64,000 nt of DNA, from assembly GCA_947589545.1 (NCBI GenBank), contig CANQBA010000011.1:1-64000 (forward strand), read 5' to 3'. A program made the position numbers and the translations under genes. Positions 38,775 to 60,191 of the stretch are shown piece after piece. How positions within the stretch are numbered: position 1 is the stretch's first letter; each line of letters starts with the position of its first letter. Origin of the DNA: an uncultured Oscillospiraceae bacterium (GTDB lineage Bacteria > Bacillota > Clostridia > Oscillospirales > Oscillospiraceae). A model generated the notes under the pieces. That model made no database searches. It saw only the letters and a list, made by a program, of their open reading frames with translations, and was not told the DNA's origin.

Positions 38775-40490
38775 ATGTGGTGCAAGCACTGCAATTTGGA
38801 GACTAACGAGCCGACTTGCCCGGTCTGCAAACGCGAGACCTGTGAGGATGTTCCGGTAGAAATCTACTGGTGCAAAAACTGTATGCTTCCGATCATTCAT
38901 CTTTCCACGGCGGCAGATAAGGGCATATGTCCGATTTGCGGGGAAGAGACTGAGTATTTGGCTTCTGATTTAAGGCCAGTTTTCCCGGAAGAACGACTTC
39001 TGCTTGCAATTCTACTCAATAAGAAGCCAGAAGAATACATGAATCATTCTGTTTGGGCAGCAAATAGCAGATATTATATTGATGGAAAAAGCCGTTCCAT
39101 TTCTCTAAAAGTTTTTTCTGAGGCGGATACAGATAAAATAGCTCAGGAAGTTAAAAGACAATCAAATAAAATCGATTATACATATTTCAATCATAACATA
39201 GCTCAATTTATTAGAGCCAATCAGCATAGATTAGCCTACCTTAAAGATGAAGCATATGAGTTTATTCGCCAGGCTACAGAAAAGGTCAGTGAAGAGGATA
39301 TTGTGCTTTCTTTTTCCGGAGGAAAGGATTCAACTGTAACAGCGGATCTGGTCACAAAAGCATTGAGCAATCCATGCTTGGTACATATCTTTGGGAACAC
39401 GACACTCGAGTTCCCTATGACGATTGAATACGCAGATCGGTATCGCGATGAGCATCCCATGGCTATTTTTCAGGTCGCCAAAAATGATGACCAGGTTTTT
39501 TACGATGTGTGCAAGGACATTGGCCCACCTGCCCGAATGATGCGGTGGTGCTGCTCAATGTTCAAAACAGGTCCAATATCAAGAATTATTAACAGCTTAT
39601 ACGGAAGCCAGCAAATATTGACGTTCTATGGTATAAGAAAATCGGAATCGGTAAGCCGAAGCAAGTATAATAGAATTGAGGACGATCCTGAATCCGTTAA
39701 AATTCAACAACAGACCGTTGCTTCTCCGATTTTCTTTTGGAAGGATATCGACATATGGTTATATATACTTGCTGAAGAAATCGACTTCAATTCAGCATAT
39801 AGACTTGGTTATGATCGCGTTGGTTGTTGGTGCTGTCCAAATAATAATCAGCGCGCGCAATTTCTTTCCCGAATCTATATGCCTGAAGAGTCAAAAAAGT
39901 GGCGTGATTTTCTCATTGATTTTGCGAAAAATGTCGGAAAACCAGACCCTGAAGTATACGTGGACAGTGGGAAGTGGAAGGCGCGTCAGGGAGGAAATGG
40001 ACTTGCGTCAGCAAATGACGTGAAAATACGGTTTACCAACTGCACAACAGAAAATCACGCAAAGATATACCAGCTTGTCAGGCCGTTTGATGATGAACTC
40101 GTCGGGATGTTTGTCCCATTTGGCAAGGTCGCGCCGGAGCTTGGGAAGAAACTTTTGCGAGAGACTATAATACTTGATGCTCATACGAATGTGCCGATTC
40201 TATCAATCCAACCGTTCAACCAAGACGGCTATGATTACGCAGTTAAGGTAAGAACCATGAATGTGTCTGATCATGAAAAATTGCAACGCATGGCAGGCTA
40301 TCAAATCAGGAAATTCAATGCCTGTAGGAAGTGCCTTAAATGCGAATCTATCTGTAGACAAGGGGCTATCTCCATTATTGGAGACAGCTACTATATCGAT
40401 CCAGGTAAGTGCATCCATTGTAAAATGTGCATGACGGCCAAATATCTCGACGGCGGCTGCATGATGGATAAATATTTACGGACAAAGTAA
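38775..40490 (+). CDS. DndC/SspD-like phosphorothioation protein (PAPS reductase family) with zinc ribbon and ferredoxin domain
   Basis: A 571-residue protein. Residues 1-60 carry zinc-ribbon cysteines (C3, C6, C15, C18 and CKNC at 33-36, CPIC at 52-55). The core is a PAPS reductase/ATP pyrophosphatase domain with PP-loop SGGKDS at residues 181-186, followed by HIFGNTTLEFP and RWCCSMFKTGP. CWCCPNN comes later. The C-terminus (about 515-565) is a ferredoxin-like CRKCLKCESICRQGAI and CIHCKMC. DndC and SspD activate the DNA backbone for sulfur insertion. The zinc ribbon and ferredoxin make this a long variant. AAGGAGG precedes ATG 38775. It is first in the nine-gene operon. Confidence 0.85.
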   Translation: MWCKHCNLETNEPTCPVCKRETCEDVPVEIYWCKNCMLPIIHLSTAADKGICPICGEETEYLASDLRPVFPEERLLLAILLNKKPEEYMNHSVWAANSRYYIDGKSRSISLKVFSEADTDKIAQEVKRQSNKIDYTYFNHNIAQFIRANQHRLAYLKDEAYEFIRQATEKVSEEDIVLSFSGGKDSTVTADLVTKALSNPCLVHIFGNTTLEFPMTIEYADRYRDEHPMAIFQVAKNDDQVFYDVCKDIGPPARMMRWCCSMFKTGPISRIINSLYGSQQILTFYGIRKSESVSRSKYNRIEDDPESVKIQQQTVASPIFFWKDIDIWLYILAEEIDFNSAYRLGYDRVGCWCCPNNNQRAQFLSRIYMPEESKKWRDFLIDFAKNVGKPDPEVYVDSGKWKARQGGNGLASANDVKIRFTNCTTENHAKIYQLVRPFDDELVGMFVPFGKVAPELGKKLLRETIILDAHTNVPILSIQPFNQDGYDYAVKVRTMNVSDHEKLQRMAGYQIRKFNACRKCLKCESICRQGAISIIGDSYYIDPGKCIHCKMCMTAKYLDGGCMMDKYLRTK

Positions 40491-40509
40491 GGACTTGGAG
40501 GACTCAGCA

Positions 40510-41421
40510 ATGCCTATGAAATTCAGAGCTCACGAAACATTTTTTATCAGGAAGGGATGGCTCAGCAAAGGCATGCGCTGTGTAGCGGACAATCCGGAAG
40601 TCTTTATTTCCCGCGAAGAAAATCCCATGGATGTGCTCGGCATTGGCGCGAATATGGTCAAGGCGTTACGCTATTGGCTGCAAGCCGTTGGACTTACCGA
40701 AGAACCGGAAAGAGGCAGACGGTTCCAAGCCTTCACGGCACTTGGTGAATTGATTTATGAGCGTGATAGATATATCGAAGAATTAGGGACCCTTTGTCTA
40801 TTACAGTATCGTCTTGCCTCTCAAAAGGATGACGCCACAGCTTGGTACTTCTTTTTCAACGAGTTTTCCGTTTCAGAATTTTCAAGGGAAGATTATGTTG
40901 TTGCCTTGCAGAAATACATTAAAATGCGCGACGGCGAGGTTGACGTTGCAATCAGGTCACTGAACGACGATTTCCAATGTATTATAAATACCTATCTTCC
41001 TCGCTATAAAGTGAATACGGTGCGAGTATCCCCTGAAAATAATATTGATTGTCCTCTGGGAGAGCTCGGCCTTGTAGATGTTCTTAACAAACGGAAAAAG
41101 ACTTACAGAAAGAGCATTCCGGCCAGCAATACCCTTGACCCATATATTATGTTGGCGGTCATAGTTGACAATGCTGGAGGGAAAAAAGAAATCAGTCTGA
41201 ATGAGCTATTGACGGCGCCCTGCAATATTGGAAGAGTATTTAATCTCGATTCAATCACAATGCTTGATGTGCTGTATCGAATCGAGAAACTTGGACTTAT
41301 CAAAATCAACCGCACAGCAGGTCTGGACGTTATAAATATACAAGAAGAACTTGATTTCTATGATTGCGTAGAGCGATATTATGCGTCTATCAATGAGCAA
41401 GGTCAGGAGAGAGCAATATGA
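40510..41421 (+). CDS. DUF4007 protein, SspB-like
   Basis: A 303-residue protein starting MPMKFRAHETFFIRKGWLSKGM, the hallmark DUF4007 start ('F-GHETF--R--WL-KG'). Residues 50-70 (DVLGIGANMVKALRYWL) fit the same family. The C-terminus (LDSITMLDVLYRIEKLGLIKINRTAGL) looks like a winged helix. As I recall, DUF4007 is the family of SspB, the nicking protein of single-strand phosphorothioation, which stands beside SspC and SspD. I chose ATG 40510 because GGAGG lies 8 bases upstream (TTG 40495 is open too). The stop overlaps the next start (ATGA). Confidence 0.82.
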   Translation: MPMKFRAHETFFIRKGWLSKGMRCVADNPEVFISREENPMDVLGIGANMVKALRYWLQAVGLTEEPERGRRFQAFTALGELIYERDRYIEELGTLCLLQYRLASQKDDATAWYFFFNEFSVSEFSREDYVVALQKYIKMRDGEVDVAIRSLNDDFQCIINTYLPRYKVNTVRVSPENNIDCPLGELGLVDVLNKRKKTYRKSIPASNTLDPYIMLAVIVDNAGGKKEISLNELLTAPCNIGRVFNLDSITMLDVLYRIEKLGLIKINRTAGLDVINIQEELDFYDCVERYYASINEQGQERAI

Positions 41422-44400
41422 GAGACATGATTTCTGTCGCTTCTGGCTTCCAATATTCTGTAAATATTGGATATGATCTTGGAAGTGATGATAAATTAAG
41501 AAATTTTATCCCGACTAAATCAGCGATCAACTTGCTGGAAGATATACTCCTGAGTATATCCCCGACCTCTACTGATCGAGCCAGGGTGCTGATTGGCGCA
41601 TACGGCAAAGGAAAGTCGCACATTGTACTAACGATTCTCTCCTTGCTTTTAAAGCGAGATCTCTCCCTCTTTGAGAAGCTGATGCCGAGACTCCGGGAAA
41701 ATCCGAGGCTTTATCAACTTGTTTTAAATTATTATGACAGTGACAACAAGATCCTTCCGGTTGTCATCAACGGCAGTAACACAAGCCTTACCCAGGCGTT
41801 CCTGATTTCTCTGCAGCGCACACTTTCAGAATATGACCTTGTGACAGCCATGCCAGAGACAAACTACAAGGCGGCTGCCGGGGTCATTGTGCGTTGGGAA
41901 AAAGAATTTCCGGATACATATAAGGAGTTTCAGAAGTGTATTGATGATCCGGCTGAGGTGTTCATTTCGCGACTGGAGAACTTTGATGTTACCGCATATG
42001 AAGTTTTCGAGCGTATATACCCGACGTTGACGTCAGGTAGTGTTTTTAATCCCTTCCTGGGCTTTGACGTAGTCGACCTTTATGAAAGTGTTGCTAAAAG
42101 CCTTAAGTCCAAAGGTTATTCCGGTATCTATGTTGTTTATGATGAGTTCAGCAAATTTTTGGAGGCCAATATTGTAGACGCTTCTGTGAGCGACACGAAG
42201 ATGCTCCAGGATTTTGCCGAAAAGTGTTGCCGCAGTGGAGATATGCAGCTCCACCTTATGCTGATTTCTCACAAGGAGATATCAAATTATATTGATAAAC
42301 TCCCTAAGGAGAAGACCGATGGATGGCGCGGGGTATCCGAACGCTTCAAGCACATCCACATGAACAACAACTTTACCCAGACATATGAGATCATCTCATC
42401 CGTTATACAACATAAGGACCCGCTCTGGAATACATTCTGCGAAGATCATGAGCGCGATTTTGATGCGCTGTTCAACATATATAGAACGCACCAGATGTTC
42501 ACAGATGCACAAGGGGAGATAAGCACCGCAATCAAAGGTTGCTTCCCTCTCCACCCTGTATCAACTTTTATTCTCCCTCGGCTTTCTGAGCGCATTGCCC
42601 AGAATGAACGTACACTATTTACTTTTCTGTCAGCAGAAGGAACAGCCACGCTTTCGGCCTTTTTGGATGAGTACAAAGATGACTTCTCTCTGGTCACACC
42701 CGATCAGATATACGATTATTTTGAGCCATTACTGAGAAAAGAGGTATATGCCGGAGAAATACATGACACTTTCGTCCTTACAAGTACTATTCTAAGTCAG
42801 CTCCAGGAAGGATCGATTGGCAGTAAAATAATAAAAACAATCTCGCTGATTTATATCCTTGAACAGTTCGAACGCCTTTGTCCTACTATGGAGCAAATCA
42901 TAAACACATATTCGAGCTCTTATGACGTTGAGGACATTAGGCGAGCTGTCAAAGACCTTGTTGAAAAAGAGTTTGTCATTTACGTTAAGAGAGGCAATGA
43001 CTATCTCAGATTGAAGCAAACCTCCGGTGTAGATATTCAACAGAAGATTCGCGATTTAATGGAGCTGCAATCCGGAAAGATTTCAACTAAGGACATCCTT
43101 AACGCATCCAATTTTGACAACTATATGTATCCAACGCGTTATAATGACGAGCACGAAATGACACGCTTCTTTTCATTCCAGTTCATATCCGGCGCGGAAG
43201 TTACAGAAAATGTAGACTGGAATATTAAAAGTGAGTCAATTAAGGCTGATGGCGTTATCTATGGTATAATTCCGGACGGCGAATCGGAGTTGACAAATAT
43301 TGCAGACATTATCAGACGCACGAGCCAAGGCTGTGACAGATATATTTTTGTGCTTCCCAAGCATTATTCAGATGTGAAAGAGCTCGTTGGAGAGTACGCC
43401 GCCGTTTTGAGTCTACGCGACCAAGCAGTGGACGACCCTGTATTGTTTGATGAGTATGAGGTGGTATTCGAGGACCTGCAGGAGGTTATAAACAGCTTTA
43501 TTGGCGCATACACGCGTCCGGAAAGCTATCAGTCTGTCTATATCCATGACGGAGACACACTAAATATACGGCGGAAATCCGGCTTGACCGAAACTCTGTC
43601 ACGAATTTGCGACAGAGTTTATGACATGACCCCGATTATCAACAACGAATCCGTAAATAAAAACGAGATTACCATCATGGCGCAGAACAGTCGCAATAAG
43701 ATCATCAGCGCCTTGTTGAGAAGTGAGCTTGAGCCGAACCTTGGTCTTACCGGGACGGGTCAGGAAGTATCTATCATGCGCAGTACGCTCCTTCGGACGG
43801 GGATTTGGAGTGAAGAGGCCGGGATTCAGCAAATAAACCTTCACCCGGATGATCCGGCAATGCGCAATATGTTGAAAACGATAGAAAACTTTATTCATGA
43901 AGCTCAACAAAATGGGCGAGTCAGCTTTTCTGTACTCTATGACCGTCTGACTTCTCCGGAAAACCACATAGGGCTGAGATATGGCTTGATTCCAATTTAT
44001 GTTGCAGCAGTCATGCACAATTACCGCCAGCAGACCGTTATACATGGCCGCTTTGAACCTGTCCCGGCAAGTGCGGATGTGCTGGTGCAAATAAACAGTG
44101 ATCCAAGCGGCTTTGCCCTGGAGTACTTAGATTGGAATCCGGAAAAAGAGAACTATGTCGCCCGATTGGCAAGGGCATTTGGTGAGTATGTCGTTCCCGC
44201 AGAAAAAGCAGGCAATCCTTACGACTATGTCGCGAATGCGATGCACCGCTGGCATATGGCACTCCCAAAGTATTCCAAAGAGAGCACAAAACGGCCAAGC
44301 GGAGAGAAACTCCACAGAAGACAGCTTGAAATGATAAAGCTTCTCCGGCAGAACATCAGTAGTTCTGATTTGCTTTTTAGAAGATTGCCGGAAGCAATGG

Positions 44401-45023
44401 ACTACCATGAAAACTATGATGATGCCGCTGCAGACATTATTGATGCAAAAGGCGTTTTTGATGGGCTTTTGAACGAGCTGAAGCAAGAACTGATTCAAGA
44501 AACTAAAATGGCGTTTCTCCCCAAAAAAGACAAAAAATCCGGGAAGAACTTATCTCTGACAGACGTGGCAAAAGAATGGTGCGACCGGCTTGATCAAAAG
44601 AGCTTTGAGCAGCTTTTCCCGGATGGAACGGACCGGTTTCTTCAGCATGTAAGGGACATGACGAACGACGAGGAGCTTTTTATAACTCGCCTTGCAAAGC
44701 TGGCCACGGGACTTCGACTCGAGGACTGGGACAGCAAAACCGCAAATCACTATTCTGAATCAATTATCGGCTTTATAAAAACTGCAGAGAAGTTCCACAG
44801 TGACGCAGTCGCCGAGACTATCAACGAAACATCCAGCTATCAGGTGACCTTCGCGGATGAAGAAGGTGTCAATACGACGAGGCGGTTTGACAAGGTCGAA
44901 ATATCGGCCCGTGGAAAACTCCTGTTTAAACAAATCACCGCGTCACTTGCAGCGATGGGACAGTCGATTTCTGAACAGGAAAAGAGACAGATTTTAATGG
45001 AAGTGCTAAAGAAGCTTTGCTGA
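41418..45023 (+). CDS. Giant P-loop ATPase, SspC-like position
   Basis: A 1201-residue protein. Walker A is GAYGKGKS at residues 60-67, Walker B is VVYDEFSKFL with Asp242-Glu243, and GCFPLHPVSTFILPRLSE appears near residue 374. The PLHP segment also occurs in PglY/BrxC-type ATPases of BREX and in the operon's last protein. The C-terminal 800 residues are mixed helix/beta without a known motif. In Ssp systems an ATPase (SspC) is encoded directly after SspB, as here, so I infer that role; the length is larger than I remember for typical SspC. Translation is coupled to the DUF4007 gene by a 4-base overlap. Confidence 0.75.
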   Translation: MRDMISVASGFQYSVNIGYDLGSDDKLRNFIPTKSAINLLEDILLSISPTSTDRARVLIGAYGKGKSHIVLTILSLLLKRDLSLFEKLMPRLRENPRLYQLVLNYYDSDNKILPVVINGSNTSLTQAFLISLQRTLSEYDLVTAMPETNYKAAAGVIVRWEKEFPDTYKEFQKCIDDPAEVFISRLENFDVTAYEVFERIYPTLTSGSVFNPFLGFDVVDLYESVAKSLKSKGYSGIYVVYDEFSKFLEANIVDASVSDTKMLQDFAEKCCRSGDMQLHLMLISHKEISNYIDKLPKEKTDGWRGVSERFKHIHMNNNFTQTYEIISSVIQHKDPLWNTFCEDHERDFDALFNIYRTHQMFTDAQGEISTAIKGCFPLHPVSTFILPRLSERIAQNERTLFTFLSAEGTATLSAFLDEYKDDFSLVTPDQIYDYFEPLLRKEVYAGEIHDTFVLTSTILSQLQEGSIGSKIIKTISLIYILEQFERLCPTMEQIINTYSSSYDVEDIRRAVKDLVEKEFVIYVKRGNDYLRLKQTSGVDIQQKIRDLMELQSGKISTKDILNASNFDNYMYPTRYNDEHEMTRFFSFQFISGAEVTENVDWNIKSESIKADGVIYGIIPDGESELTNIADIIRRTSQGCDRYIFVLPKHYSDVKELVGEYAAVLSLRDQAVDDPVLFDEYEVVFEDLQEVINSFIGAYTRPESYQSVYIHDGDTLNIRRKSGLTETLSRICDRVYDMTPIINNESVNKNEITIMAQNSRNKIISALLRSELEPNLGLTGTGQEVSIMRSTLLRTGIWSEEAGIQQINLHPDDPAMRNMLKTIENFIHEAQQNGRVSFSVLYDRLTSPENHIGLRYGLIPIYVAAVMHNYRQQTVIHGRFEPVPASADVLVQINSDPSGFALEYLDWNPEKENYVARLARAFGEYVVPAEKAGNPYDYVANAMHRWHMALPKYSKESTKRPSGEKLHRRQLEMIKLLRQNISSSDLLFRRLPEAMDYHENYDDAAADIIDAKGVFDGLLNELKQELIQETKMAFLPKKDKKSGKNLSLTDVAKEWCDRLDQKSFEQLFPDGTDRFLQHVRDMTNDEELFITRLAKLATGLRLEDWDSKTANHYSESIIGFIKTAEKFHSDAVAETINETSSYQVTFADEEGVNTTRRFDKVEISARGKLLFKQITASLAAMGQSISEQEKRQILMEVLKKLC

Positions 45024-45037
45024 GGAAGTGAAATTAA

Positions 45038-46183
45038 ATGGCGTATTTTGATAACGCGGCTACCACATATCCGAAGCCGGATGAAGTCTATGCTTTTATG
45101 GACAGCTTCTACCGTATGTACGGAGGGAGTGCAGGCCGCGGAGAATATGCCCTTGCCAACAGCGCCAGAGGACTCATAGATGAGACAAGGAGATTGCTTC
45201 AGGAGCTCTTACATTGTTCTGCAAAGCAAGTGATTTTCACTCCAACGGCAACTATTGCCTTGAACATGATTATTCAAGGAGTGATCAGGGGGGGAGCAAA
45301 GAGCGTTTACATTAGCCCCTTTGAACATAATGCGGTCACGCGTGTTCTTTATCACTTTGAGCAGCTCGGTCAAATAACTGTTACAGAATTGGCGGTTTCT
45401 GAAACGCTTGAATATGATTTAGCCAGAATACGCTATCAGTTTGATGCTGTTCACCCTGATTTTGTGATTGTGAGCCATGCAAGCAATGTCATTGGCCTGA
45501 TAGCCCCGGTGGAAGACATTTTTGCGTTAGCAAAAAAGTATGATGCTGTGACATTAGTAGATATGGCACAGACAGCTGGACTTGTTGACTTAAACGTTGG
45601 ATTCGATACAATTGATTTTGCCGTTTTTGCAGGGCATAAAACGCTGCTTGGCCCAACAGGGCTATCTGGATTTTTGATAGCCCCATCGATCCTTCTGCCG
45701 CCAGTCCTGTTTGGAGGAACGGGGTATGACTCCGCAAATCAGGATATGCCCGACAGCCTTCCTGAAAAGTATGAGATGGGAACCATCAATACGATAGGCG
45801 TTGCCGGCCTGAACGCGGCCCTAAAATGGATAGACCGTCAGACAGTAGAGAAACTTTGCCAGCTGGAACAACTCCACAGGATCAGGCTTTTGGAGATACT
45901 GCGTGATTACGATTTTGTGACGACTGTAGGAGTCGTAGAAGGCCGAAAGTATGTCGGCATCGTCTCCTGCCTGATCGATGGGATCAGCAGCGACAGCGCC
46001 GGGAGCATTTTTAGCTCAAAAGGTGTTGCTGTACGGACGGGGCTCCAATGTGCGCCCCGAACGCACAAGAGGTTGGGGACGTTCCCGGCGGGCACGGTAC
46101 GGTTTAGCGTAGGACCTTTCACGGATGAGAAGGATTATGCCGAGCTGGCTGCTGCCCTTGACTATATCGCTGAGAATATGTAG
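45038..46183 (+). CDS. Cysteine desulfurase (SspA/DndA-like)
   Basis: A 381-residue class V PLP enzyme that takes sulfur from cysteine. It starts AYFDNAATTYPKPDEV, has the PLP Lys201 in AGHKTLLGPTG, and the sulfur-carrying Cys338 in GLQCAPRTHKRLGTFPAGTVR. The sequence type is that of the 'IscS-like' short class V desulfurases in Firmicutes. In Dnd and Ssp systems the desulfurase passes sulfur to DndC/SspD, here encoded at 38775-40490. GAGGAAG precedes ATG 45038. Its place inside the operon, 14 bases after the ATPase, ties it to DNA sulfur modification and not to iron-sulfur assembly. Confidence 0.9.
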   Translation: MAYFDNAATTYPKPDEVYAFMDSFYRMYGGSAGRGEYALANSARGLIDETRRLLQELLHCSAKQVIFTPTATIALNMIIQGVIRGGAKSVYISPFEHNAVTRVLYHFEQLGQITVTELAVSETLEYDLARIRYQFDAVHPDFVIVSHASNVIGLIAPVEDIFALAKKYDAVTLVDMAQTAGLVDLNVGFDTIDFAVFAGHKTLLGPTGLSGFLIAPSILLPPVLFGGTGYDSANQDMPDSLPEKYEMGTINTIGVAGLNAALKWIDRQTVEKLCQLEQLHRIRLLEILRDYDFVTTVGVVEGRKYVGIVSCLIDGISSDSAGSIFSSKGVAVRTGLQCAPRTHKRLGTFPAGTVRFSVGPFTDEKDYAELAAALDYIAENM

Positions 46184-46223
46184 TGGCCGATGAACCGAGA
46201 CAGATCATGAGTGGGGGTTGAAT

Positions 46224-47912
46224 ATGTCTGAAATGATCTCGAAGTTTCCGAATGAGAGTTTTGTCGATTATCTCAATACGCTTCATAACGCCAGCGCCAA
46301 CAATCAGAGCGCCATCGCGGAATTGAATATCACCAACCCGTTCTTTGCAAAAACGATGGTACAGCGTGAGGTTGGCGAGTACATCAAGAAGCAGCTTGAG
46401 GGTGAGCCCCATATTTTTGTGTTAACAGGACACGCCGGAGACGGAAAAACAGGCTTACTGTATCAAACGCTGAGAGATTGGAATGTCATCAAGGCCAGGG
46501 ACGGGCTGAAAACAGAGAATATCGTGGAGTCCCCAAACGGCAGGAAGGTGAACTATGTCAAAGACTTCAGCGAGCTCACCGCAGAGGATAGACGGCCAAT
46601 CTTAGAAACGGCGAAAGCCGCTTGCTCCCAAGGGATAACCACCTTTTTGGTGGCTAACACCGGACCGCTCATCAAGACCTTTGATGAGTGCTTTTCCGAT
46701 TCGACATCCGCCTTGCTCCTTGATGCGATCGACAACAACGATGGGCAAACCAAACTATATGACGGGATACCTGTTGCGGTTATCAATGTGGCGACGATAG
46801 ATAATTCGACGTTTGTAAAGCCCTTTCTACATAATCTCCTGTCGGAGGAGCTGTGGAGTCCCTGCAGTACCTGCGGTAAGAGGGACTATTGCCCCATCTA
46901 TTCCAATCGCAGATTAATGAATCAGTCGAGTGACCGAATCGACGATTTCATAACGAAACACTATATTTTTCAACAGGAGTATGGCGAGAAGTTGACCATC
47001 CGCCAAATTGTAGGGCATCTCAGTTTTACCTTAACAGGCGGTTTAACTTGCCAAGGCGTATCGAATAGCAAAAGTGCCCTGTTTAAGTTCCTCTTTTCTA
47101 ACAACTTCTTTGGATATAAGGGTATACATATCAACCGAGAATCGCTGAATATGAGGGCCGTTGCGGATATCGCCCGAGCTGCTTATGACCAGAAGCGGCT
47201 CAGGGCGGATGAATCCTTGTTCATTAAGCGGGACCTGGCTGGTATTTTTACGAAGTATATCGCAGAGCTTCTTGATAGAGAAGGGGAGCGGTTGCACTAT
47301 AATGAAGACTGGCAGCGAGCCGTGCGGCGGGCATATATGTTCTTGAACATTGACACCTCTGAGACGAGCCGAAAAGAGATGCTGCAGGACGTTTTTTCTT
47401 ACTGGTTCCCGCGTTATTTACAGCTGAGAAGCGGAGCGCCGGCTTCGGGCGCCGACAAAGAATTGGTTCAGGACGCTCTTCAGATGATTTTTACGGAATC
47501 CATTTCCGGAACAGAAAAAGATATTCCAATCACAATGAAACGTGAAAATGGCGTCTCTCAGAGCGTCCAGTTAGTCTATGATTCGATCGTAAAGAAAAAA
47601 GTCAGGATAGAGCCTAAAGCGGTTTCAGATTACAGCAAAAGCAAACGGTATTTGATTTACATTTCCGTTGAGGGGGAGCGGGTCAATACACAAATTTCCT
47701 TACCCATGTTTGATTATTTTGAAGAGATCCGGCGGGGGGCTATTGCGACAAATATCGATCCGATGCTCTCCCAGGGGATTGACAGCCTGAAGGCGCAGAT
47801 CATTTCGCTGTTTGATGCAGATAGATCGGAAATTGAACTCCTTACCCTGACGGGCTCCAGATGGGAATCTATCATTGCTGAATACGAAGCGGGTGATTGG
47901 AGAATTGTTTGA
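46224..47912 (+). CDS. dptF: DptF-like phosphorothioation-dependent restriction protein
   Basis: A 562-residue P-loop protein. Walker A is GHAGDGKT at residues 69-76 (VLTGHAGDGKTGLL). A zinc-type cluster CSTCGKRDYCPI lies near residue 213, and DEESL-type helical stretches follow. This arrangement matches DptF (DndF), the first gene of the dptFGH restriction module. DndFGH restricts DNA lacking phosphorothioate in Dnd systems. I chose ATG 46224 over TTG 46218 because GTGGGGG lies at the better distance. It is followed by the dptG-like gene after 14 bases. Confidence 0.78.
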   Translation: MSEMISKFPNESFVDYLNTLHNASANNQSAIAELNITNPFFAKTMVQREVGEYIKKQLEGEPHIFVLTGHAGDGKTGLLYQTLRDWNVIKARDGLKTENIVESPNGRKVNYVKDFSELTAEDRRPILETAKAACSQGITTFLVANTGPLIKTFDECFSDSTSALLLDAIDNNDGQTKLYDGIPVAVINVATIDNSTFVKPFLHNLLSEELWSPCSTCGKRDYCPIYSNRRLMNQSSDRIDDFITKHYIFQQEYGEKLTIRQIVGHLSFTLTGGLTCQGVSNSKSALFKFLFSNNFFGYKGIHINRESLNMRAVADIARAAYDQKRLRADESLFIKRDLAGIFTKYIAELLDREGERLHYNEDWQRAVRRAYMFLNIDTSETSRKEMLQDVFSYWFPRYLQLRSGAPASGADKELVQDALQMIFTESISGTEKDIPITMKRENGVSQSVQLVYDSIVKKKVRIEPKAVSDYSKSKRYLIYISVEGERVNTQISLPMFDYFEEIRRGAIATNIDPMLSQGIDSLKAQIISLFDADRSEIELLTLTGSRWESIIAEYEAGDWRIV

Positions 47913-47926
47913 GGAGGACAGCCAAG

Positions 47927-52400: not shown

Positions 52401-54768
52401 GGACTTGATTGTGATGCTCCACCGAAAATCCAATTGGGTAGTTTGTGTGGACAGCGGGATGGACGGTGCATTGCTCCGAGACAGGGAAGGCAAAAACCAG
52501 GATTATTCTATTATCGGCTTCAGCACAGGTAAGGGGCCGCATGGGCAATATAACCTGACGATAACAGCTAGAAATTCTATTATCAACGCTGTTGAGGCAA
52601 AGCTAAAAAGGAGACTGCAAAAGTCCTTTTCCTGGGACAAGTTGAAAACGACGGTGGCGGCTCGAGTCTGCATGGATGAGGCCAGGAATCTGGACGGGGT
52701 GAGTTTGCTAAGTGCCATCAACCCGAAAGACGAAAACATCCATGAGTTTTTGGCCTATGTCCTTACTTCTCTCCAGGCGAAAAAGGAACGCAGCGCATCA
52801 GCTCTGCAGGTCGTGGTTCATCTCGATTCCTATCAGCACTGGTTTGAGAGCAACATCCTTGAGGAGAAGGTCGAGAACAGATCAAGACCTAATTTCCTTC
52901 AAGTGTCGGCGGACATTGGCGACGATGGCAAAATCCATCTTGACGCAACCGTCATAGAATGCAAAATCGCAAAATATGACAATGCGGAAGAGCGAAAAGC
53001 CGATGCGATCCAGCAGGTCAAACACGGGATAGAGCATCTTTCAAAACTGTTTGACCCAAGATCGACGTCCATTCGCCGCCGTTATTGGTTCGCACAATTA
53101 TATAGAGCTTTGGCCTTTTCGCAAATCACGTTCCAATCGGATACGCTGGCGTTTCAGCGCCTTTCCGAGCAGATGCGAGACATTCTCGAGGGCAGCTTTG
53201 AGATCTCTTGGTTCGGGAAGATCATGGGCTATTGGAAGGATATGCCCGGAGAGAATGAGATCATAACCACCATGTCCATGGTCCCCATGATCAAGTTACA
53301 TGAGGTTCCGCAAAAAAGGATCCAGAGGATACTCCTTGATGATGACGATGCTGCGGTCGAGTTTGTGTCAGTTGTCGAGGAGGACGAAACAGATATCCCC
53401 GAGGAAGAGGAGGACGAGAGCGTTTCCGTTCAAGCCGCCCATGAAACAACTCCTGCGAAAGAGACTGCGGAAGAGGTTTCGACAGACCTGAGCGCGACAA
53501 ACGAAAACAGTTACTCCGGCGAGACTGCCTCTACCTCTCAGGAAGAAGAGAAGGCCCCCGTGCTTGAACCGGTATTGGATACGGGAAAACAGCCGACGCC
53601 CCCCTCCCAAGCTAAAACTGAGAAGCCTGAAGTTATCCAGAAAAGAGCTCTGGAGGATGTCAGAGTATTCATCGGAAAGGACAAGGCCGGGAATAAAGTC
53701 TTTTGGGATTTTGGCCATCCGAAACTTGCTAACCGCCATCTGCTCATAACCGGCACTTCCGGCCAAGGAAAGACCTATAGCATTCAGGCCATGTTGAAGG
53801 AGCTGGCCGAGAACGGTATCTCCTCTGTGATTTTTGATTACACAGAGGGATTCCGCGAGGACCAGCTTGAACCGGCGTTTAGAAACGCTTTGGCAGATCG
53901 AATCTCTCAACAGGTCGTTTATGTGTCGGGGATTCCCATTGATCCCTTCAGACGTCATGAGATCGAGATCGGAGATTTTAAGGTGCCGGAGAAGGTTTCA
54001 GACGTCTCTCAGAGGATCGCCGCCATCTTCACACACGTCTATAACTTTGGCGAACAGCAATTTGGCGCTATATACTCAGCGTGCAGTGACGCCATGAACA
54101 CCTACGGGGACCAGACAGATATATTCAAATTTAGGGAAAAACTCAAGGAGCTGGGCAATCCTGCCGCAAAATCGGTCCTGACAAAGATGGCCCCGTTCTT
54201 TGACAGCGTGGAGTTCCAAAAGGATGCCGAATTTGACTGGAACTCAGTTATCCGCTCTGATGGGTCAATCATCATTTTCCAGTTGACGCATTATGTGAGG
54301 GAGATCCAGGTGATCATCACGGAAATGATGCTGTGGGACGCTTGGCATTATTTCAAAAAGAATGGTGATAAGAACACGCCCTTTGTAGTGGTGCTTGACG
54401 AGGCGCAGAACCTCTCCATGAAAGACGGTTCTCCCGCGGAGGTCATCCTACGGGAGGGAAGGAAATTTGGCTGGTCAGCGTGGTTCGCTACGCAAAGTCT
54501 GAAATCACTGTCGGAAAATGAGGTAGTCAACCTCCGCCAGGCTCCATTTTCACTCTATTTCAAGCCTACGGATGATGAGATCCTTAAGATCGCAAAGCAG
54601 ATCGATCCCACATCCAGCAACAGCTGGGTGACCCAGATCAAGGGATTGCACAAGGGGCAGTGCGTTGTAGTTGGTGACCGAGTTCGCACGGATGGTACTT
54701 TTGGTACATTCAAGCCAACGGTCACGAATGTCACGTCATTTGAAGAAAGAGAACATGAAGAAGTATAA
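49486..54768 (+). CDS. dptH: DptH-like HerA/FtsK-type ATPase of a phosphorothioation-dependent restriction complex
   Basis: A 1760-residue protein, the right size for DptH (DndH). The first 1270 residues are mixed and contain no known motif. An acidic, low-complexity linker rich in Glu, Ser and Thr spans about 1295-1400. The C-terminal domain is a HerA/FtsK-like translocase: Walker A GTSGQGKT at 1423-1430 and Walker B VVLDEAQNLS with Asp1638-Glu1639, then WFATQSLKSL. DndH provides the ATPase/translocase of the DndFGH complex. It begins at GTG 49486, four bases inside dptG, and its end overlaps the next gene by 14 bases. Confidence 0.82.
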   Translation: MKYIVDTIIKTISSQNPRPNEQLRIRISGFEDVRIYEAVAKRLHDTYDGRLAVETRLSKEKCNEFKKDSQSNQTAMLSLEAHGWVAMKNSLTYYRNLPLSEAQLIVIMGTEAVDDQGGLSDFYYLDPEKLVSELVPNYYLAFSPIAGGWTDDEKKCVNKLYGDLFSLVPINLCKFSDLADSWGTLSTIEDFVERFFEQLPLWGLCRVRDTLPTVNQIIKTGRKNLLQTNYDFITRKLFAKMTIKQFNNYLNKVELYQNGTETNKENTKKYPEDWTGWSNQSVKSLLTYSNSLSQFIRGENIEENRRQLQGVDFAITEYVLGITLPDVVVHKKKKLSVTGDPYFAFLKAICASIACEDTEPFDTIRVKVSSIELADAVDSLIDADESAQLATAWKKVCWFAGGVIEYINSIGFEVNGNEISIESDDSSPFDSKCVELNISEGLISTAAASKKLDKVSFEVAHYHQGKSTDIRHSFEWTFTLHDDWVIAFDQMCLQYEQWDEDQIDAAVPVLTVDKYEALMNAKSEEEFLDVFELSSLSFDLNLSAEAQKQLVPDGTIEWRAEYSALGRSFVSFCRSLTSVGFYADILQNQKGECKANRFIDGYVKLGDLIVNSTFTQKSEWVMDYFTHAFAIESSTRAITTGENDTGCIIPPFHPAILQKMIDRVVFVADGCREWLHDNEEMHASFDKICSMVNELAQLSQIQEGVDIFPSIKGTFFGTTQGFANYCICGECERSSKMRMTALMKKDAVFDDDFSDGALKTMNVSAKMFADVLETYKKALPNYSFNLSIAVINPEDLQPIIAALYQYISTVKKEPGADEKAIQIRLHVLVRPKNKGGKNYLSYWANTFFNQDENVDLKIYLNEWNNNDDLEKLLDTNLDLIFLMDVLVLNQLRFVRQNAESSGSGLSDCRFPIVFKPAPVSVAYVKRSIELTQQQFGAATIHSQVVYYRETYESFPYQKQLVVREASIDKERKDLIVMLHRKSNWVVCVDSGMDGALLRDREGKNQDYSIIGFSTGKGPHGQYNLTITARNSIINAVEAKLKRRLQKSFSWDKLKTTVAARVCMDEARNLDGVSLLSAINPKDENIHEFLAYVLTSLQAKKERSASALQVVVHLDSYQHWFESNILEEKVENRSRPNFLQVSADIGDDGKIHLDATVIECKIAKYDNAEERKADAIQQVKHGIEHLSKLFDPRSTSIRRRYWFAQLYRALAFSQITFQSDTLAFQRLSEQMRDILEGSFEISWFGKIMGYWKDMPGENEIITTMSMVPMIKLHEVPQKRIQRILLDDDDAAVEFVSVVEEDETDIPEEEEDESVSVQAAHETTPAKETAEEVSTDLSATNENSYSGETASTSQEEEKAPVLEPVLDTGKQPTPPSQAKTEKPEVIQKRALEDVRVFIGKDKAGNKVFWDFGHPKLANRHLLITGTSGQGKTYSIQAMLKELAENGISSVIFDYTEGFREDQLEPAFRNALADRISQQVVYVSGIPIDPFRRHEIEIGDFKVPEKVSDVSQRIAAIFTHVYNFGEQQFGAIYSACSDAMNTYGDQTDIFKFREKLKELGNPAAKSVLTKMAPFFDSVEFQKDAEFDWNSVIRSDGSIIIFQLTHYVREIQVIITEMMLWDAWHYFKKNGDKNTPFVVVLDEAQNLSMKDGSPAEVILREGRKFGWSAWFATQSLKSLSENEVVNLRQAPFSLYFKPTDDEILKIAKQIDPTSSNSWVTQIKGLHKGQCVVVGDRVRTDGTFGTFKPTVTNVTSFEEREHEEV

Positions 54769-55564
54769 TTTGAACTTTCATCAAACTTTTCCTCCAACAG
54801 CCGAGTACATTACGCGGCTGTTGGAGGTGTGCGATCATGGAGAAGCCCTCACAAAAGAACAAATCTCCGAGCTTACGGGGATACCGACAGGGACAAGCAG
54901 CGGGAAGGTCGAGCCACATATCTGCTACGGGGAATATATGGGCCTGTTGCGGGATGACCGTGCCGAGGGAAAACACCTTTTGCGGCTGACGTCTCTTGGT
55001 AAAGAGCTTCTGGAGCAGGATCCTGGTCTGCGAGAAAAGGTATCGACCGCCGTTTGCCATGCGAGGATCACATCCCGTTACGGCGGTGCGACACTTTGGA
55101 CAGTGATCATAAAGGATATATTCCCAAAATACCCGCAGGGGATCAGCGATGCGCTTCTTAAGGATGAACTGGAAAAGAGATATGGCATGCCCACGAAAAC
55201 CGGTCCCTTCTTCAGCTCCTACTCTGGCATGTTCGATAACCTTGCACTGTTCAATAAAACGGGAAACCTGGTCGGCTTGGGCAGCGGGATTATAGATAGG
55301 GAATTGCTCTACGTTTACGCTTACGCCCTTTTGTATGAGTGGGAAAACGCATTTCCGGACCAGGTGGAAATCACCGCACCGGAGCTGGGCTCCCTGAGTA
55401 TTGCTGAGACATTTGCCTTTTCGGGAAAAGTGTTTTACGAGGTCATTGAGCTGCTGGCAGAGAAGGGGATCGTTCGCTTCAACCGTCAACTTGCTCCGTA
55501 TACCCTTTTGCGTTTGCGTGGTTCAGAGGATATAATACCGTCCCTTTATAGCGAACTTTGCTGA
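54755..55564 (+). CDS. Winged-helix protein related in layout to DUF4007
   Basis: A 269-residue protein. It starts MKKYNLNFHQTFPPTAEYITRLLE, where FHQTFP resembles the FRAHETF of the DUF4007 protein at 40510. The region KEQISELTGIPTGTSSGKVEPH reads as a helix-turn-helix. The C-terminus (FSGKVFYEVIELLAEKGIVRFNRQL) is winged-helix-like, as in the first DUF4007 protein. It starts inside dptH (14-base overlap) and is followed by a giant ATPase after 19 bases, repeating the DUF4007 + ATPase order seen at the front. I propose an SspB-like partner; no exact family is recognised and the start is poorly marked. Confidence 0.62.
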   Translation: MKKYNLNFHQTFPPTAEYITRLLEVCDHGEALTKEQISELTGIPTGTSSGKVEPHICYGEYMGLLRDDRAEGKHLLRLTSLGKELLEQDPGLREKVSTAVCHARITSRYGGATLWTVIIKDIFPKYPQGISDALLKDELEKRYGMPTKTGPFFSSYSGMFDNLALFNKTGNLVGLGSGIIDRELLYVYAYALLYEWENAFPDQVEITAPELGSLSIAETFAFSGKVFYEVIELLAEKGIVRFNRQLAPYTLLRLRGSEDIIPSLYSELC

Positions 55565-55583
55565 TGAGTGGGAGGCCGTAAAT

Positions 55584-58500
55584 ATGAGATTTGGCGAAGT
55601 ATTGTCTTTCCGAAAAGATATTTTCTTTGACGGAGCCGTACAGATCGATTGGTTTTATAACCCGGTACGGACGAAGACCGTTGCGGAGAACTTTGTATTC
55701 CACGGCAGTGAATACTTTGGCGTAAGTGATTCGGGTGGCAAAAAACTGACCGATACGGTCCAGTTTGTCCATGACATCGTCATGAAAGTATCTGACGACC
55801 AGCATGTGAACCCTCTTTCCCTTGCTATAGCTGGCTATGGCACCGGAAAGTCGCATTTGGCGGTCACACTGGCGGATCTGCTCTCTGGTGAAGACTATCA
55901 GCCTGATGTCCATAGGACCATCATCAAAAATATTGCGGCAATAGATGGGCAAAAGGCCGCCTTGATCGCTCAAGCCACCGGGCGCCCTAACCTGGTATTG
56001 GTTCTCAACGGGATGAAGGACTTTAACCTCAACTATGAGCTGCTCAGAGCCGCACAGAGATCACTTCGCCTCTATGGTTGCTCTGATGACAATTTGAAAA
56101 AACTGAACCGAGCGATAGAAACGGCATTCCGCTTTTTTGAGCGCAATGCCTCCTCCTTGCTCGGCCTGTTTGAAGAAAAGGCCCGTTCTTTCGGTTATTC
56201 ACAAACGGGTCAAGAGTTGGTTGATATACTGCGTCTACAGCTTGGTGAGGAAGAATCGGCGTTTGATGTGATCAACGCTGTCTACAATGAAATAAATGGC
56301 AACGAGATCCGCTGGGATGAGGGGGTTTCCGCGACCTCAGTTTTAGAGACCTTGCTGAGTGAATACTGCGGGATCAGCGGCCCCTTTAACAAGATCGTTC
56401 TCATCTTTGACGAGTTTGGAAGATATTTAGAGTATGCGTCTGCGACCACGACAGCGCGTTCAGGAGATTCCGCTCTTCAGCAGATTTTTGAGTGCGCCCA
56501 GAATGCGGAAGGGGCCATTCAAGTCGTTAATTTCATCCAGTCCGATATTAAGAGTTACCTGCAGCGCGTCGATCAGACGAGCAACATCAGCAGATACATA
56601 GGCCGGTATGACGCCAGCGATAAATATTATCTCTCATCAAACCTGGAAACCGTTTTTGCCAACCTTATTCAACGTGTTGATAAGGATGCCTTTGGAAGGA
56701 CGATCCGTCCTTGGCAGCAGGGGAGAGAGGCCCTTTGGAATGATATTTTCAAGGACATGAATCGCTGGCTTCCCACCAAGGGTGTGTGGAAGGACTACTC
56801 CTTGTTCCGCCAGGTCGTTGTTGAGGGGATATATCCCCTTCACCCCTTGGCGACTTACATGCTGTCACAGCTATCAGACTATTTACAGAACCGCTCCTCG
56901 CTGATGCTCCTGGGGCGATATGTGAACGAGTATGAAAATACAGAGCTCACCCCAGAAGCGATTCCTTTAGTCTACCCCGAGACCTTGCTGTCGGGGGACT
57001 TATTTACGGAGATGCTGTCCGCAGAGGAAGAGGGACGGCAGTACAGCCAGCACTGTATTCGATACAGTAACATCCTCCGAAAATACGAGGATAAGCTGTC
57101 TGACCATTCTAAGATGATCCTGAGAGCGAACCTTGCTATGCGCATCCTTCGCTGCAGGATCGACAGCTATGAGGACGTCAAGCACGCAATCAGTATTTTT
57201 TCTGGACTTGATCAAGGGGTCATCGAGGAAGAACTCGTATGGCTTGAAAACGAGTATGCGATCCTCGGATACGACGAGCACTCATACTGCTTCGATTTTT
57301 TGGAGGACTCCAGTGGTGCCCATGATTTCAAAACGTTTTTCAAGCGGCTTCGGGCAAATACAGCTTTTTCATACAGTGTACTTGAAGAATCGAAGATCCG
57401 GGAATGGGCCGATGTCCTTACGCCCCAGACATCCAATTTTGCCGCGAAACACAAGATCAAAACCAACGAGTGGCAATATGAGCAGGATCTCTTCTCAATA
57501 AACGAACTGTCGGAACCCTTTGTTCAGACCTGCATAGAGGCCTGGAAAGCGGCCATCACTCCTGATAAACTGAAAGGAAAACTGATTTGGCTTTACCTGA
57601 ACAGGGATTCAGCAAGCAATGCGTTGGAACTGGCCTGTTCTCTGGCTAAGAAGGTCGAGGGAACACCGATCGTGTTCATGCTTCTGAATGATACAGAGGA
57701 CAGACTAAACAACGCCCTGTGCGACTATCTCGCTCTGCAAGCTGTCTCAGAGGCTGACCGACAGAAATATGGCCGCCATTATATTGATAAGCTCGAGCAA
57801 ACGGAAGAGAATATCAAAAATGCCTTTGATCAACTGAAAAAGCAGAGACAAAGGATCACCGGGCACGGCGTACAAACTCTCGAGAGCCGTTTGGCGGTCG
57901 CATTAACAGATATCTTTGAGAACGTTTACCCGAAGGTCATCCCCTTTGATTTTGACGGATTTGACAGCAAGCAGCCCGGAAAAGCGAGAAAAGCATTTTG
58001 TTCCATCGTCCGTCTGCTCCTATCGGGGTCGGTCAACGGAGATACGATCCATTCGTTTCCCTCCGAAGTCAGGAACCGTCTTGAGGCGACACTTTTTCAT
58101 ACAGGTGCTTTTTCCTGGAAGGTCATTAACGCAAATTATCAGATCATCCCTCCCGAACAGAAAAATGTGCGGGCTGTTTATGAGGAGATCGTTGATATGC
58201 TTCCCGAGGGAAACGAGATCCCTCTGGACAGATTGATCGCCAAATTGGTCGCACCCCCTTACGGCCTGAATGATTACGTCTCCGTGTATTTGCTGTTTAC
58301 CCTGTGCGCAAATATGAGCTATTGCCTGCGTGTAGTGGTGAATGGAGCAGTATACAGCATTGCGGCATGGAGAGATGAAGTTATACAGGACAGCAAAATC
58401 GACCTGGGGACAATCAGGAAGTCCACATTGAAGCGAGTCAATGCCGGCGCAGTGGCTGACAGCTTTTTGCGGATGTTTGCTCGGATAGATAACAATGTGG

Positions 58501-60191
58501 ATATCGGCCAGGTTGACGCGCTTTCACAAGAGTTGGAGACTTTGAAGCGGGCGGAGAATATTCCGGAAGCCCTTAATGCTCAGTACCAGCTTGCGCTCAA
58601 TAAGATCCAGGAAGGGCGCCGTATCAAAAAGAGATGGGATGGTCTCAAAGATGAAGTGAATGAAAAATACGGTGAATTTCTGGACAAGAGAGATGTCTAT
58701 TCCGGGCTGTTGGCGATTCAGAAGCTTGGAGGCATGTCCTTCTACAATTGTTTTTCTGATTCACCATATGCGATGACGGAGGAGCAGAGGAACGAGATAA
58801 CATCCCAGAGACAAGAAATAGAACAATTTGTAAATCCCTTCCTCCAGGGGTGGATCTTAGAGCAACGTTGTAAAGGCGTTGAGAGCATTTCTCAATATCG
58901 AAAACATATGGAAAGGCTCAAGAATCTTCTCCAAGATGTGGGCTACGATACAGCTGCTAAACAGGTAAAGGACAGGGCCGAACAGGAGTTGAGCAACGTT
59001 GAGAATATCAGGGCCCGTCAGCAGCTCCGCTCTAACTGCTCTGATTATCTGCAAAACTGTGTTGTCAAGGCTGTGGTCCCCTATACTCGCCTGGTTGAAT
59101 GGAAAAAGCAGGGGGAGGTGTTGCTGGGCCAAATCCAGAAGTTTTCCGCTTCTCTGGGCAGTGAAGCGGAAGGAATAAATAAGAATATTTCCAATCGGGT
59201 GGCTGAGGTCGATAAGTCCATTGAACGGATCAAGAAGGATATGAATGACATCTATGATGACATTTATTCCGTTTCCAGCGTCGAAGACATCAGCGATATG
59301 ATCAGCAGGATTCAGCAGGTTTGTCAGAAGGGGATTCCCTCGACGGACATTGCGGATTTTGAAGAACTTAAGAGTACGCTTGAATCCTTTTTGACTGACA
59401 TCAGGGCTCTTTCGGACTGCCAAGAGGATTGGGAGGCTTTCAATATAGAGCATGATGAGCTGATGAGGAAGTATGCGGATAATGAATATGATTTCGATGT
59501 TGTCTCCATACTTGAGCAAGTGTCCGCTGCCATTCAAGATTCGCTCAAAAAACGTGATGTTGACTGGTCTGCAAAATACCTATCTAAGGCTCTGAACAGC
59601 CGTGTGGATCTGCTAGCCTGGGTAGACGGCACTCGAATGACTCCCAAGTATCTTTCCGAAGAGACGAAAGCCAAGTTCTTAGAACGCAGTAAAGAGGTCG
59701 CCGAGCGCCTGAGCAAAGCTAAGATCGACGACGTGATCTATAGCTTTATCAAACTGGAAGAGAAGGAAAAGGAGCTGTGCTTTGACCGCCTGATAGAGAT
59801 ATACCAGAACCATGATACAAACGAGCCAAACGTTATCGAAGCCACCATCTCGCGGAACAAGAAATGGGACCTTGAGGAATGGGTCGTACTGGCCAAGCTC
59901 TATTTCGAGAACAGAGGAAAAACTCGCACTGAACTCGCAGATGAACTATCTGCGCTCTCTGCGATGCTGGTCCGTAGAGCGGACATCCTCGAAATAGAGC
60001 ATGACGGGAAATACCGGAACGTCAATGGCCTTGCCATGCAACTTGACCGGATCAAGTACATTGATACAAAGGGCGAGAGAGGACTATCCGCCTACAGCGA
60101 GTTAGCGGAGGCAGCCGTCTCCATGTACCATGTTGACCGGGAAGGGTTTGAGCTGATCGCCAAGAAATGTTGGGAGAAGTATGAAAAATGA
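55584..60191 (+). CDS. Second giant P-loop ATPase (PglY/BrxC/SspC-like)
   Basis: A 1535-residue protein. Walker A is GYGTGKS at 84-90, Walker B is LIFDEFGRYLEY with Asp276-Glu277, and YPLHPLATYMLSQLSDYL near residue 415 matches the PLHP segment of the ATPase at 41418. Residues 980-1350 are rich in coiled coil (for example ERIKKDMNDIYDDIYS). The C-terminal 120 residues look like a helix-turn-helix (TRTELADELSALSAMLVRRADILEIEHDG). It resembles the large ATPases of BREX (PglY/BrxC) and of phosphorothioation clusters. It is last in the operon. Its role alongside DptFGH is not established by any precedent I can name. Confidence 0.72.
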   Translation: MRFGEVLSFRKDIFFDGAVQIDWFYNPVRTKTVAENFVFHGSEYFGVSDSGGKKLTDTVQFVHDIVMKVSDDQHVNPLSLAIAGYGTGKSHLAVTLADLLSGEDYQPDVHRTIIKNIAAIDGQKAALIAQATGRPNLVLVLNGMKDFNLNYELLRAAQRSLRLYGCSDDNLKKLNRAIETAFRFFERNASSLLGLFEEKARSFGYSQTGQELVDILRLQLGEEESAFDVINAVYNEINGNEIRWDEGVSATSVLETLLSEYCGISGPFNKIVLIFDEFGRYLEYASATTTARSGDSALQQIFECAQNAEGAIQVVNFIQSDIKSYLQRVDQTSNISRYIGRYDASDKYYLSSNLETVFANLIQRVDKDAFGRTIRPWQQGREALWNDIFKDMNRWLPTKGVWKDYSLFRQVVVEGIYPLHPLATYMLSQLSDYLQNRSSLMLLGRYVNEYENTELTPEAIPLVYPETLLSGDLFTEMLSAEEEGRQYSQHCIRYSNILRKYEDKLSDHSKMILRANLAMRILRCRIDSYEDVKHAISIFSGLDQGVIEEELVWLENEYAILGYDEHSYCFDFLEDSSGAHDFKTFFKRLRANTAFSYSVLEESKIREWADVLTPQTSNFAAKHKIKTNEWQYEQDLFSINELSEPFVQTCIEAWKAAITPDKLKGKLIWLYLNRDSASNALELACSLAKKVEGTPIVFMLLNDTEDRLNNALCDYLALQAVSEADRQKYGRHYIDKLEQTEENIKNAFDQLKKQRQRITGHGVQTLESRLAVALTDIFENVYPKVIPFDFDGFDSKQPGKARKAFCSIVRLLLSGSVNGDTIHSFPSEVRNRLEATLFHTGAFSWKVINANYQIIPPEQKNVRAVYEEIVDMLPEGNEIPLDRLIAKLVAPPYGLNDYVSVYLLFTLCANMSYCLRVVVNGAVYSIAAWRDEVIQDSKIDLGTIRKSTLKRVNAGAVADSFLRMFARIDNNVDIGQVDALSQELETLKRAENIPEALNAQYQLALNKIQEGRRIKKRWDGLKDEVNEKYGEFLDKRDVYSGLLAIQKLGGMSFYNCFSDSPYAMTEEQRNEITSQRQEIEQFVNPFLQGWILEQRCKGVESISQYRKHMERLKNLLQDVGYDTAAKQVKDRAEQELSNVENIRARQQLRSNCSDYLQNCVVKAVVPYTRLVEWKKQGEVLLGQIQKFSASLGSEAEGINKNISNRVAEVDKSIERIKKDMNDIYDDIYSVSSVEDISDMISRIQQVCQKGIPSTDIADFEELKSTLESFLTDIRALSDCQEDWEAFNIEHDELMRKYADNEYDFDVVSILEQVSAAIQDSLKKRDVDWSAKYLSKALNSRVDLLAWVDGTRMTPKYLSEETKAKFLERSKEVAERLSKAKIDDVIYSFIKLEEKEKELCFDRLIEIYQNHDTNEPNVIEATISRNKKWDLEEWVVLAKLYFENRGKTRTELADELSALSAMLVRRADILEIEHDGKYRNVNGLAMQLDRIKYIDTKGERGLSAYSELAEAAVSMYHVDREGFELIAKKCWEKYEK

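Follow-up and report, generated by a model that had tools for sequence, protein, structure and literature searches.

Positions 38775 to 60191 of the DNA stretch analysed here (the window, 64,000 nucleotides from an uncultured Oscillospiraceae bacterium) hold nine open reading frames (ORFs), all on the + strand and open, with -16 to +34 bases between neighbours. This spacing suggests one operon, and the tight packing of nine genes noted in a preliminary description of the window is confirmed. The nine-gene set of this gut bacterium is most likely an anti-phage system that marks host DNA with sulfur and attacks DNA without the mark. We propose, with a probability of roughly one half, that it is a variant of the SspABCD-SspFGH phosphorothioate restriction-modification system, the restriction module of which would comprise five genes, F-G-H-B2-C2. 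B2 and C2 form a second SspB/SspC-like pair, and this pair is the novel part of the operon: attached to SspFGH it is apparently undescribed, according to a literature search that excluded supplements, preprints and most subscription papers. The source contig C11 (80.9 kb) is part of a 3.83-Mb draft genome of 148 contigs (G000; genomes, contigs and loci are cited below by G, C and L numbers). The nine proteins were tested against Pfam, PADLOC, TIGR families and PDB sequences, and are assigned as follows.

38775..40490, + strand: SspD/BrxP-type PAPS reductase-like sulfurtransferase, 571 amino acids (aa), ferredoxin-like C-terminus (Pfam PAPS_reduct 5.5e-32)
40495..41421, + strand: SspB (DUF4007), 308 aa from TTG, with an ATG at 40513 (Pfam DUF4007 1.7e-83)
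41418..45023, + strand: SspC ATPase, 1201 aa (PADLOC SspC 9e-131)
45038..46183, + strand: SspA cysteine desulfurase, 381 aa (TIGR01977 1.7e-123; SspA 2.4e-38)
46218..47912, + strand: SspF, P-loop protein, 564 aa (PADLOC SspF 5.7e-35)
47897..49489, + strand: SspG, 530 aa (PADLOC SspG 2.6e-33)
49486..54768, + strand: SspH, mixed in its matches (PADLOC DndH 9e-74, SspH 4.9e-22), with an SspH-like middle, a nuclease-like motif RP(D)...ECK at 1134-1160 and a DptH-type HerA motor at about 1388-1755
54755..55564, + strand: B2, diverged SspB relative, 269 aa (profile-profile match to SspB 99.4%, E 5.6e-22, 257 columns)
55584..60191, + strand: C2, diverged SspC relative, 1535 aa, residues 1418-1535 being an added domain (PADLOC SspC 4.4e-18)

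The B2-C2 pair and its place after SspH

The preliminary description had listed a second small protein and a second giant ATPase and drew no conclusion from them; both are present, as B2 and C2. B2 reaches Pfam DUF4007 only under the cut-off (8.5e-4) and matches no PADLOC family at E 0.01. In all 41 rows C2 has intact Walker A and B motifs (G86-x-G88-K89 and D276-E277). In trees, B2 (24 rows) and C2 (23 rows) each fall on one side of a branch separating them from SspB (23) and SspC (24), with support 100; canonical writers without the pair (G498, G675) are placed among the other writers, and the SspC of the window pairs with that of G675 (support 91, not starred). These trees are quick searches with support by the Shimodaira-Hasegawa-like approximate likelihood ratio test (SH-aLRT) only and with long-branch warnings; the B tree omits the short L064_B, and the extended B and C trees omit the near-duplicates L024, L026, L027, L030 and L056. 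An origin of B2-C2 as a same-lineage duplicate of the writer was considered and rejected, since the trees give the pair a clade of its own.

Scanning species genomes with a C2 alignment yields 51 loci, which by their titles belong to Bacillota, desulfobacterial groups, Pseudomonadota, Chloroflexota, Verrucomicrobia, Sumerlaeota, Atribacteria and Bacteroidales. H, B2 and C2 follow one another in this order on one strand in 48 of them, accompanied by G in 34 loci and by F in 31; where G or F is not visible, contig ends cut them off. The three exceptions are two loci that start at a contig edge (L029, L034) and L069, where only part of C2 is present, 1.3 kb from the start of its contig. Extra ORFs interrupt three of the 48 blocks, between B2 and C2 in L040 and between H and B2 in L065 and L070. 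By eye, these inserts (L065:7300-9125, L070:4649-6444, L040:8326-9847) encode an ATPase-like and a small protein, or a ParA-like and a small protein.

Since these loci were all reached through C2, a reverse search was seeded with SspG in two sets of genomes, 398 from the phylum of the window and 395 from that of G309. Strong matches (E 1.9e-118 or better) number 8 and 5, respectively, 13 altogether. B2-C2 follows H at each of the 11 strong loci that can be read, and at each of eight when the already known G000, G309 and G315 are left aside; the contigs of G691 and G861 stop before B2. Weaker matches (E 1.7e-22 or weaker) mark F-G-H without B2-C2 in the complete genome G675 and at a second locus of G1306 (C11); in G830 the contig ends. 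Likewise, in an SspG-profile search of 295 genomes, the fetched stretches of G498, G587 and G605 hold no B2-C2. G498 is canonical by PADLOC (SspH E=0, SspF 1e-215). G587 (L081-L082) and G605 (L085-L086) carry two SspF-G-like sets with huge neighbouring ORFs (2538 and 2319 aa) and no Ssp writer in the fetched stretch. Within the 398 same-phylum genomes, a strong SspB-type DUF4007 protein is found in 28; eight of these, the window genome included, have the subtype with B2-C2, and one (G675) has the weak-SspG type.

Linkage to the attack genes and exchange of the writer

Six arrangements of the writer (D, B, C and, in part, A) around the fixed block were recorded in the 31 loci in which writer genes are seen:

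D-B-C-A before F: 8 loci
B-C-D after C2: 8 loci (in L100 with D on the other strand)
B-C-D before F: 12 loci, once with A
writer divergent from F: 1 locus (G311)
writer convergent after C2: 1 locus (G314)
D-B-C-A after C2: 1 locus (G753)

Protein distance matrices (171 pairs, 19 loci) correlate with r 0.91-0.97 among F, G, H, B2 and C2 and with 0.84-0.96 among D, B and C; across the two blocks the values are 0.68-0.83. From the 24 loci at hand, L014, L022, L056 and L064 (missing or broken genes) and L065 (no whole F in the fetched piece) were omitted by hand. A natural exchange is seen between Domibacillus (L025) and Mesobacillus (L026), the DNA of which is 89.4% identical along 13,388 bases running from F into C2. 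Their attack proteins are accordingly close (F 88%, G 91%, H 91%, B2 88%, C2 86%), and their writers are not (B 32%, C 29%, D 62%). Because co-variation with F-G-H exceeds that with the writer, and because of this exchange, B2-C2 appears to be part of the restriction module and not of the writer.

The same data bear on three other explanations. In the first, B2-C2 would be a second writer that shares SspA and SspD and marks a second motif, both marks being needed against self-attack by FGH. The whole pair is homologous to SspB/SspC, and D and A are single-copy and could serve both pairs. However, the correlation of D is higher with B and C (r 0.84 and 0.87) than with B2 and C2 (0.73 and 0.78), and in a joint alignment eight of the 11 residues invariant in 23 SspB are lost in 24 B2, with F, G and D kept at three positions. 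The pair moreover tracks the FGH subtype and not the type of writer, as G675 combines a similar D-B-C-A writer with an FGH that lacks B2-C2. We consider a second writer unlikely.

Secondly, B2-C2 might be a brake or regulator that holds back FGH, or the writer, until infection, instead of a guide. The constant place of the pair beside H and its co-variation with FGH would suit any partner of FGH. On the other hand, no regulator family is matched, and the intact Walker motifs of C2 suit an active motor equally or better; we consider a brake unlikely as well. Thirdly, the operon could be a plain SspABCD-SspFGH system that B2-C2 accompanies only as a hitch-hiker, a defence module in its own right that does not matter to FGH. 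Canonical SspFGH is reported to work without the pair (PMC8092258), and G498 and G675 lack it as well; yet its retention after H in all readable SspG-seeded loci and in 48 loci of several phyla, together with its co-variation with FGH, makes this improbable.

A role of B2-C2 on the attacking side is further suggested by a second setting. On plasmids of Pseudanabaena galeata and Thermomicrobium roseum, the genes after SspB-SspC-SspD encode another DUF4007 protein, a small ORF product, another giant ATPase, PglZ, BrxL and a desulfurase, and the second pairs of both plasmids group with B2 (support 97) and C2 (99) in trees. The pair thus stands beside two unrelated attackers and is therefore more easily read as attack-side equipment. 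Two look-alikes were not counted: in Abditibacteriota (L132) the pair is closer to SspB/SspC than to B2/C2 and no SspD is seen, and in G658 the second pair, beside a PglZ-like and a BrxL gene, is likewise closer to SspB/SspC. BREX-type loci (see below) with two DUF4007/SspC-like pairs, PglZ and BrxL lie at L079:5678-24272, L130:8416-23979 and L133/L136 (Pseudanabaena, Thermomicrobium and G658).

Concerning the partner writer, 30 cassette-bearing genomes were chosen from the 51 loci. A full SspB is present in 26 of them, in 22 on the cassette contig within about 17 kb and in four on another contig. A Dnd writer as partner was rejected, as DndC lies above the cut-off in none of the 30.

The added domain of C2 (1418-1535) is a separate small gene 3' of C2 in two relatives and stands as a gene by itself next to a Dnd-like locus in G246 (tail matches at L020:14273-14617, L067:14276-14686 and L016:15791-16159). 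Neither the tail nor its free-standing relative matches a Pfam family. The 89% DNA identity of L025 and L026 stops near C2 position 13905, some 350 bases short of the C2 end, and is not resumed over SspB-SspC.

Writer and restriction genes compared with known systems

The gene at 38775 is related to DndC (PADLOC 1.9e-12) and SspD (3.3e-12), as first described, though BrxP is its best PADLOC match (6.4e-81). Its ferredoxin matches (Fer4_7 3.3e-4, Fer4 5.9e-4) lie just under the Pfam cut-offs; a 2026 paper reports the same ferredoxin-like end as in BrxP for a subset of SspD (PMC12839542). The DUF4007 protein, the giant ATPase and the cysteine desulfurase were also correctly recognised. SspB additionally matches PADLOC SspB (2.9e-57) and the PDB entry of SspB, 6juf (4.2e-23); for SspC, the solved structures searched gave chance-level matches only. 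With cysteine desulfurase, DUF4007 protein, SspC ATPase and PAPS reductase-like protein, the SspABCD module is complete. Ssp modification is defined by single-strand phosphorothioate at C*CA.

In agreement with the preliminary description, the profile searches reveal no DndD, DndE or SspE in the window. In the whole draft genome DndD has no match, with matches in 9 of 14 control genomes; DndE has none either, which is weak evidence as its search was silent in all 14 controls. No SspE lies beside sspBCD, and the sole DUF262 protein of the genome is on another contig and matches the SspE profile weakly (2e-4). This protein of 592 aa (G000:C60:16773-17513, L109) has HEC-05 as its best PADLOC family (6e-19). 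Among the PADLOC matches there is no Pbe-named family, although whether the library has Pbe models was not checked.

F, G and H adjoin one another and sspBCD, which is the gene arrangement of SspFGH. In SspF, GHAGDGK at 71-77 and N147-T148-G149 are invariant in 16 aligned rows, and the N-T-G sits at the expected position of the Walker B Asp. For DndF, an Asn in Walker B is reported (PMC10853773), and the N-T-G of SspF, compared by eye, may parallel it, as the weak profile match of F to DptF would also suggest. SspF scores 0.0057 with the DndF profile and weakly with two DptF sequences in profile comparison (84.8%, E 6.5e-6). SspG has no DndG profile match, nothing in a profile comparison against only two DptG rows (0.2%), and nothing useful when compared with SspB. 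SspH matches DndH (9e-74) on residues 1156-1683, the HerA and nuclease part, and SspH (4.9e-22). Its HerA motor (1388-1755) is 42% identical to Priestia DptH over 373 columns (2e-90), the Priestia plasmid in question carrying dndBCDE-dptFGH; outside the HerA part the two have no significant match. The middle of SspH compares weakly with canonical SspH of G498 (34 bits, 20% identity). R-P-D ... E-C-K may represent a PD-(D/E)xK nuclease, judged by the motif and the published description of DndH, with no domain match.

The preliminary description had read this part as DptFGH and proposed that a single-strand Ssp writer is joined to the Dnd restriction complex. One operon with F-G-H and a DptH-type HerA stands; F and G turn out to be SspF and SspG. 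A genuine DptFGH is favoured by the HerA motor and by the weak match of F to DptF. It is largely refuted for F and G, which fit the SspF/SspG profiles, G being without a match to the two DptG tried, and H matches DptH significantly only in its HerA part; we consider it very improbable. The combination of an Ssp writer with FGH is also not new, as SspABCD-SspFGH was shown in 2021 to defend E. coli (PMC8092258), and with such a system known there is no need for FGH to respond to an unusual mark, as had been supposed.

The variant of SspABCD-SspFGH that we propose shares with the system described for Vibrio anguillarum FF-93 (PMC8092258) the SspA/B/C/D writer, the adjacent F-G-H, a Walker A motif in F and an FtsK/HerA-like end of H. 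As described there, the system protects E. coli and is toxic without phosphorothioate, and its three-gene restriction module has no need of B2-C2. It further differs in its H: canonical SspH (G498) matches that of the window only weakly, and the HerA of the window is DptH-type. According to that paper, SspFGH and DndFGH are not homologous in sequence; in a 2025 review, sspFGH are named as homologs of dndFGH (PMC12707154). SspH of the window supports the latter link, at least for the HerA part. DndABCDE-DndFGH (DptFGH) shares the HerA motor of H and the motif pattern of F as described for DndF (PMC10853773), but here there is no DndC/D/E partner, F and G have Ssp profiles and DptG is unmatched; dptFGH of Priestia also has no adjoining B2-C2.

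Type-4 bacteriophage exclusion (BREX; BrxP, BrxC, PglZ and BrxL as described in PMC12839542) shares relatives of SspD, SspB and SspC, the SspD of the window being of BrxP type, and a B2-C2-like pair beside PglZ-BrxL on the two plasmids. It differs in that PglZ and BrxL are absent among the nine window proteins. A separate type-4 BREX is found elsewhere in the window genome (G000:C43, L019:4853-14772), with BrxP of 850 aa (PADLOC 8e-248), an SspC-like protein of 1157 aa, PglZ of 810 aa (6e-80) and BrxL of 477 aa.

HerA/FtsK capture systems share the idea of a HerA, an Orc/CDC6-type ATPase and a DndG/SspB-like winged helix-turn-helix DNA binder in one operon, but by their description contain inactive restriction endonuclease inserts in the ATPase and no SspBCD writer with F-G-H (PMC10853773). 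Of the published descriptions found, these HerA systems with Orc/CDC6 ATPases and SspB-like proteins are the nearest anticipation of the B2-C2 finding. A HerA-centred, BREX-related capture system shares HerA, DUF4007, a BrxC-like ATPase (DUF6079) and a STAND NTPase; as described, it has PglZ and neither an SspBCD writer nor F-G-H (PMC12839542).

Two further observations concern neighbouring genes. A SLATT_5 membrane effector-type gene lies at window positions 60482-61090, 290 bases 3' of C2 (Pfam 2.5e-28). Beside ssp loci, an annotated 'DNA phosphorothioation-associated putative methyltransferase' and two ORFs with, by eye, look-alike N-termini are found (L079:2950-5064, L083:9411-11303, L088:10674-12701).

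Proposed mechanism and its meaning

Gene content, fixed order, co-variation, the separate ancestry of the pair and the natural exchange of the writer are observed. From these we infer a sequence of scanning, mark sensing, loading and cutting. SspA and SspD would supply sulfur, which SspB-SspC would place in host DNA, as established for relatives. In a published model, SspC is an Orc/CDC6-type ATPase that encircles DNA and acts together with SspB (PMC10853773). B2-C2 would act on the attacking side, as an ATPase that scans DNA along with a DNA-binding partner of its own, and would inspect DNA for missing phosphorothioate or for writer activity. It may then load or license F-G-H at unmodified DNA, where SspH would translocate by its HerA motor and cut by its nuclease domain. 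A scanner of its own would keep the attack module fixed while the writer is exchanged.

Several points weigh against this interpretation. It derives here from sequence comparison. The correlations carry no significance test and their pairs are not independent. The exchange between L025 and L026 ends inside C2, the last 120 or so residues of which are only about 36% alike; the break may be a crossover point, or the C2 tail may be fitted to the writer. A full SspB was not found in four of the 30 cassette genomes (G307, G313, G319, G320), and only two PglZ-BrxL loci with the pair are firm. Residue 1136 of the window SspH (window 52891-52893) is Asn at the putative catalytic position, where 34 of 35 aligned rows have Asp; this copy may therefore not cut, being nuclease-dead, or the assembly may be wrong. 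Finally, canonical SspFGH is reported to function without B2-C2, so that a scanner is not generally required (PMC8092258).

More broadly, and tentatively, phosphorothioate defences might recurrently split their surveillance, with SspB-SspC for writing and B2-C2 for attack. B2-C2 would then read the sulfur itself and not the motif, and hence serve exchanged writers and two unrelated attackers, SspFGH and PglZ-BrxL; we hold this to be possible at less than even odds.

Wang et al. report that for 2,211 of 2,678 sspBCD sets a partner was not found, and the present subtype, too diverged from canonical SspFGH, would probably have escaped their queries. An open question in the field is how FGH tells apart DNA with and without the modification, given that sulfur is present at only 10-15% of sites, as stated in PMC8092258. 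A scanner pair dedicated to the attacking side, if true, would be a direct and testable answer for this subtype.

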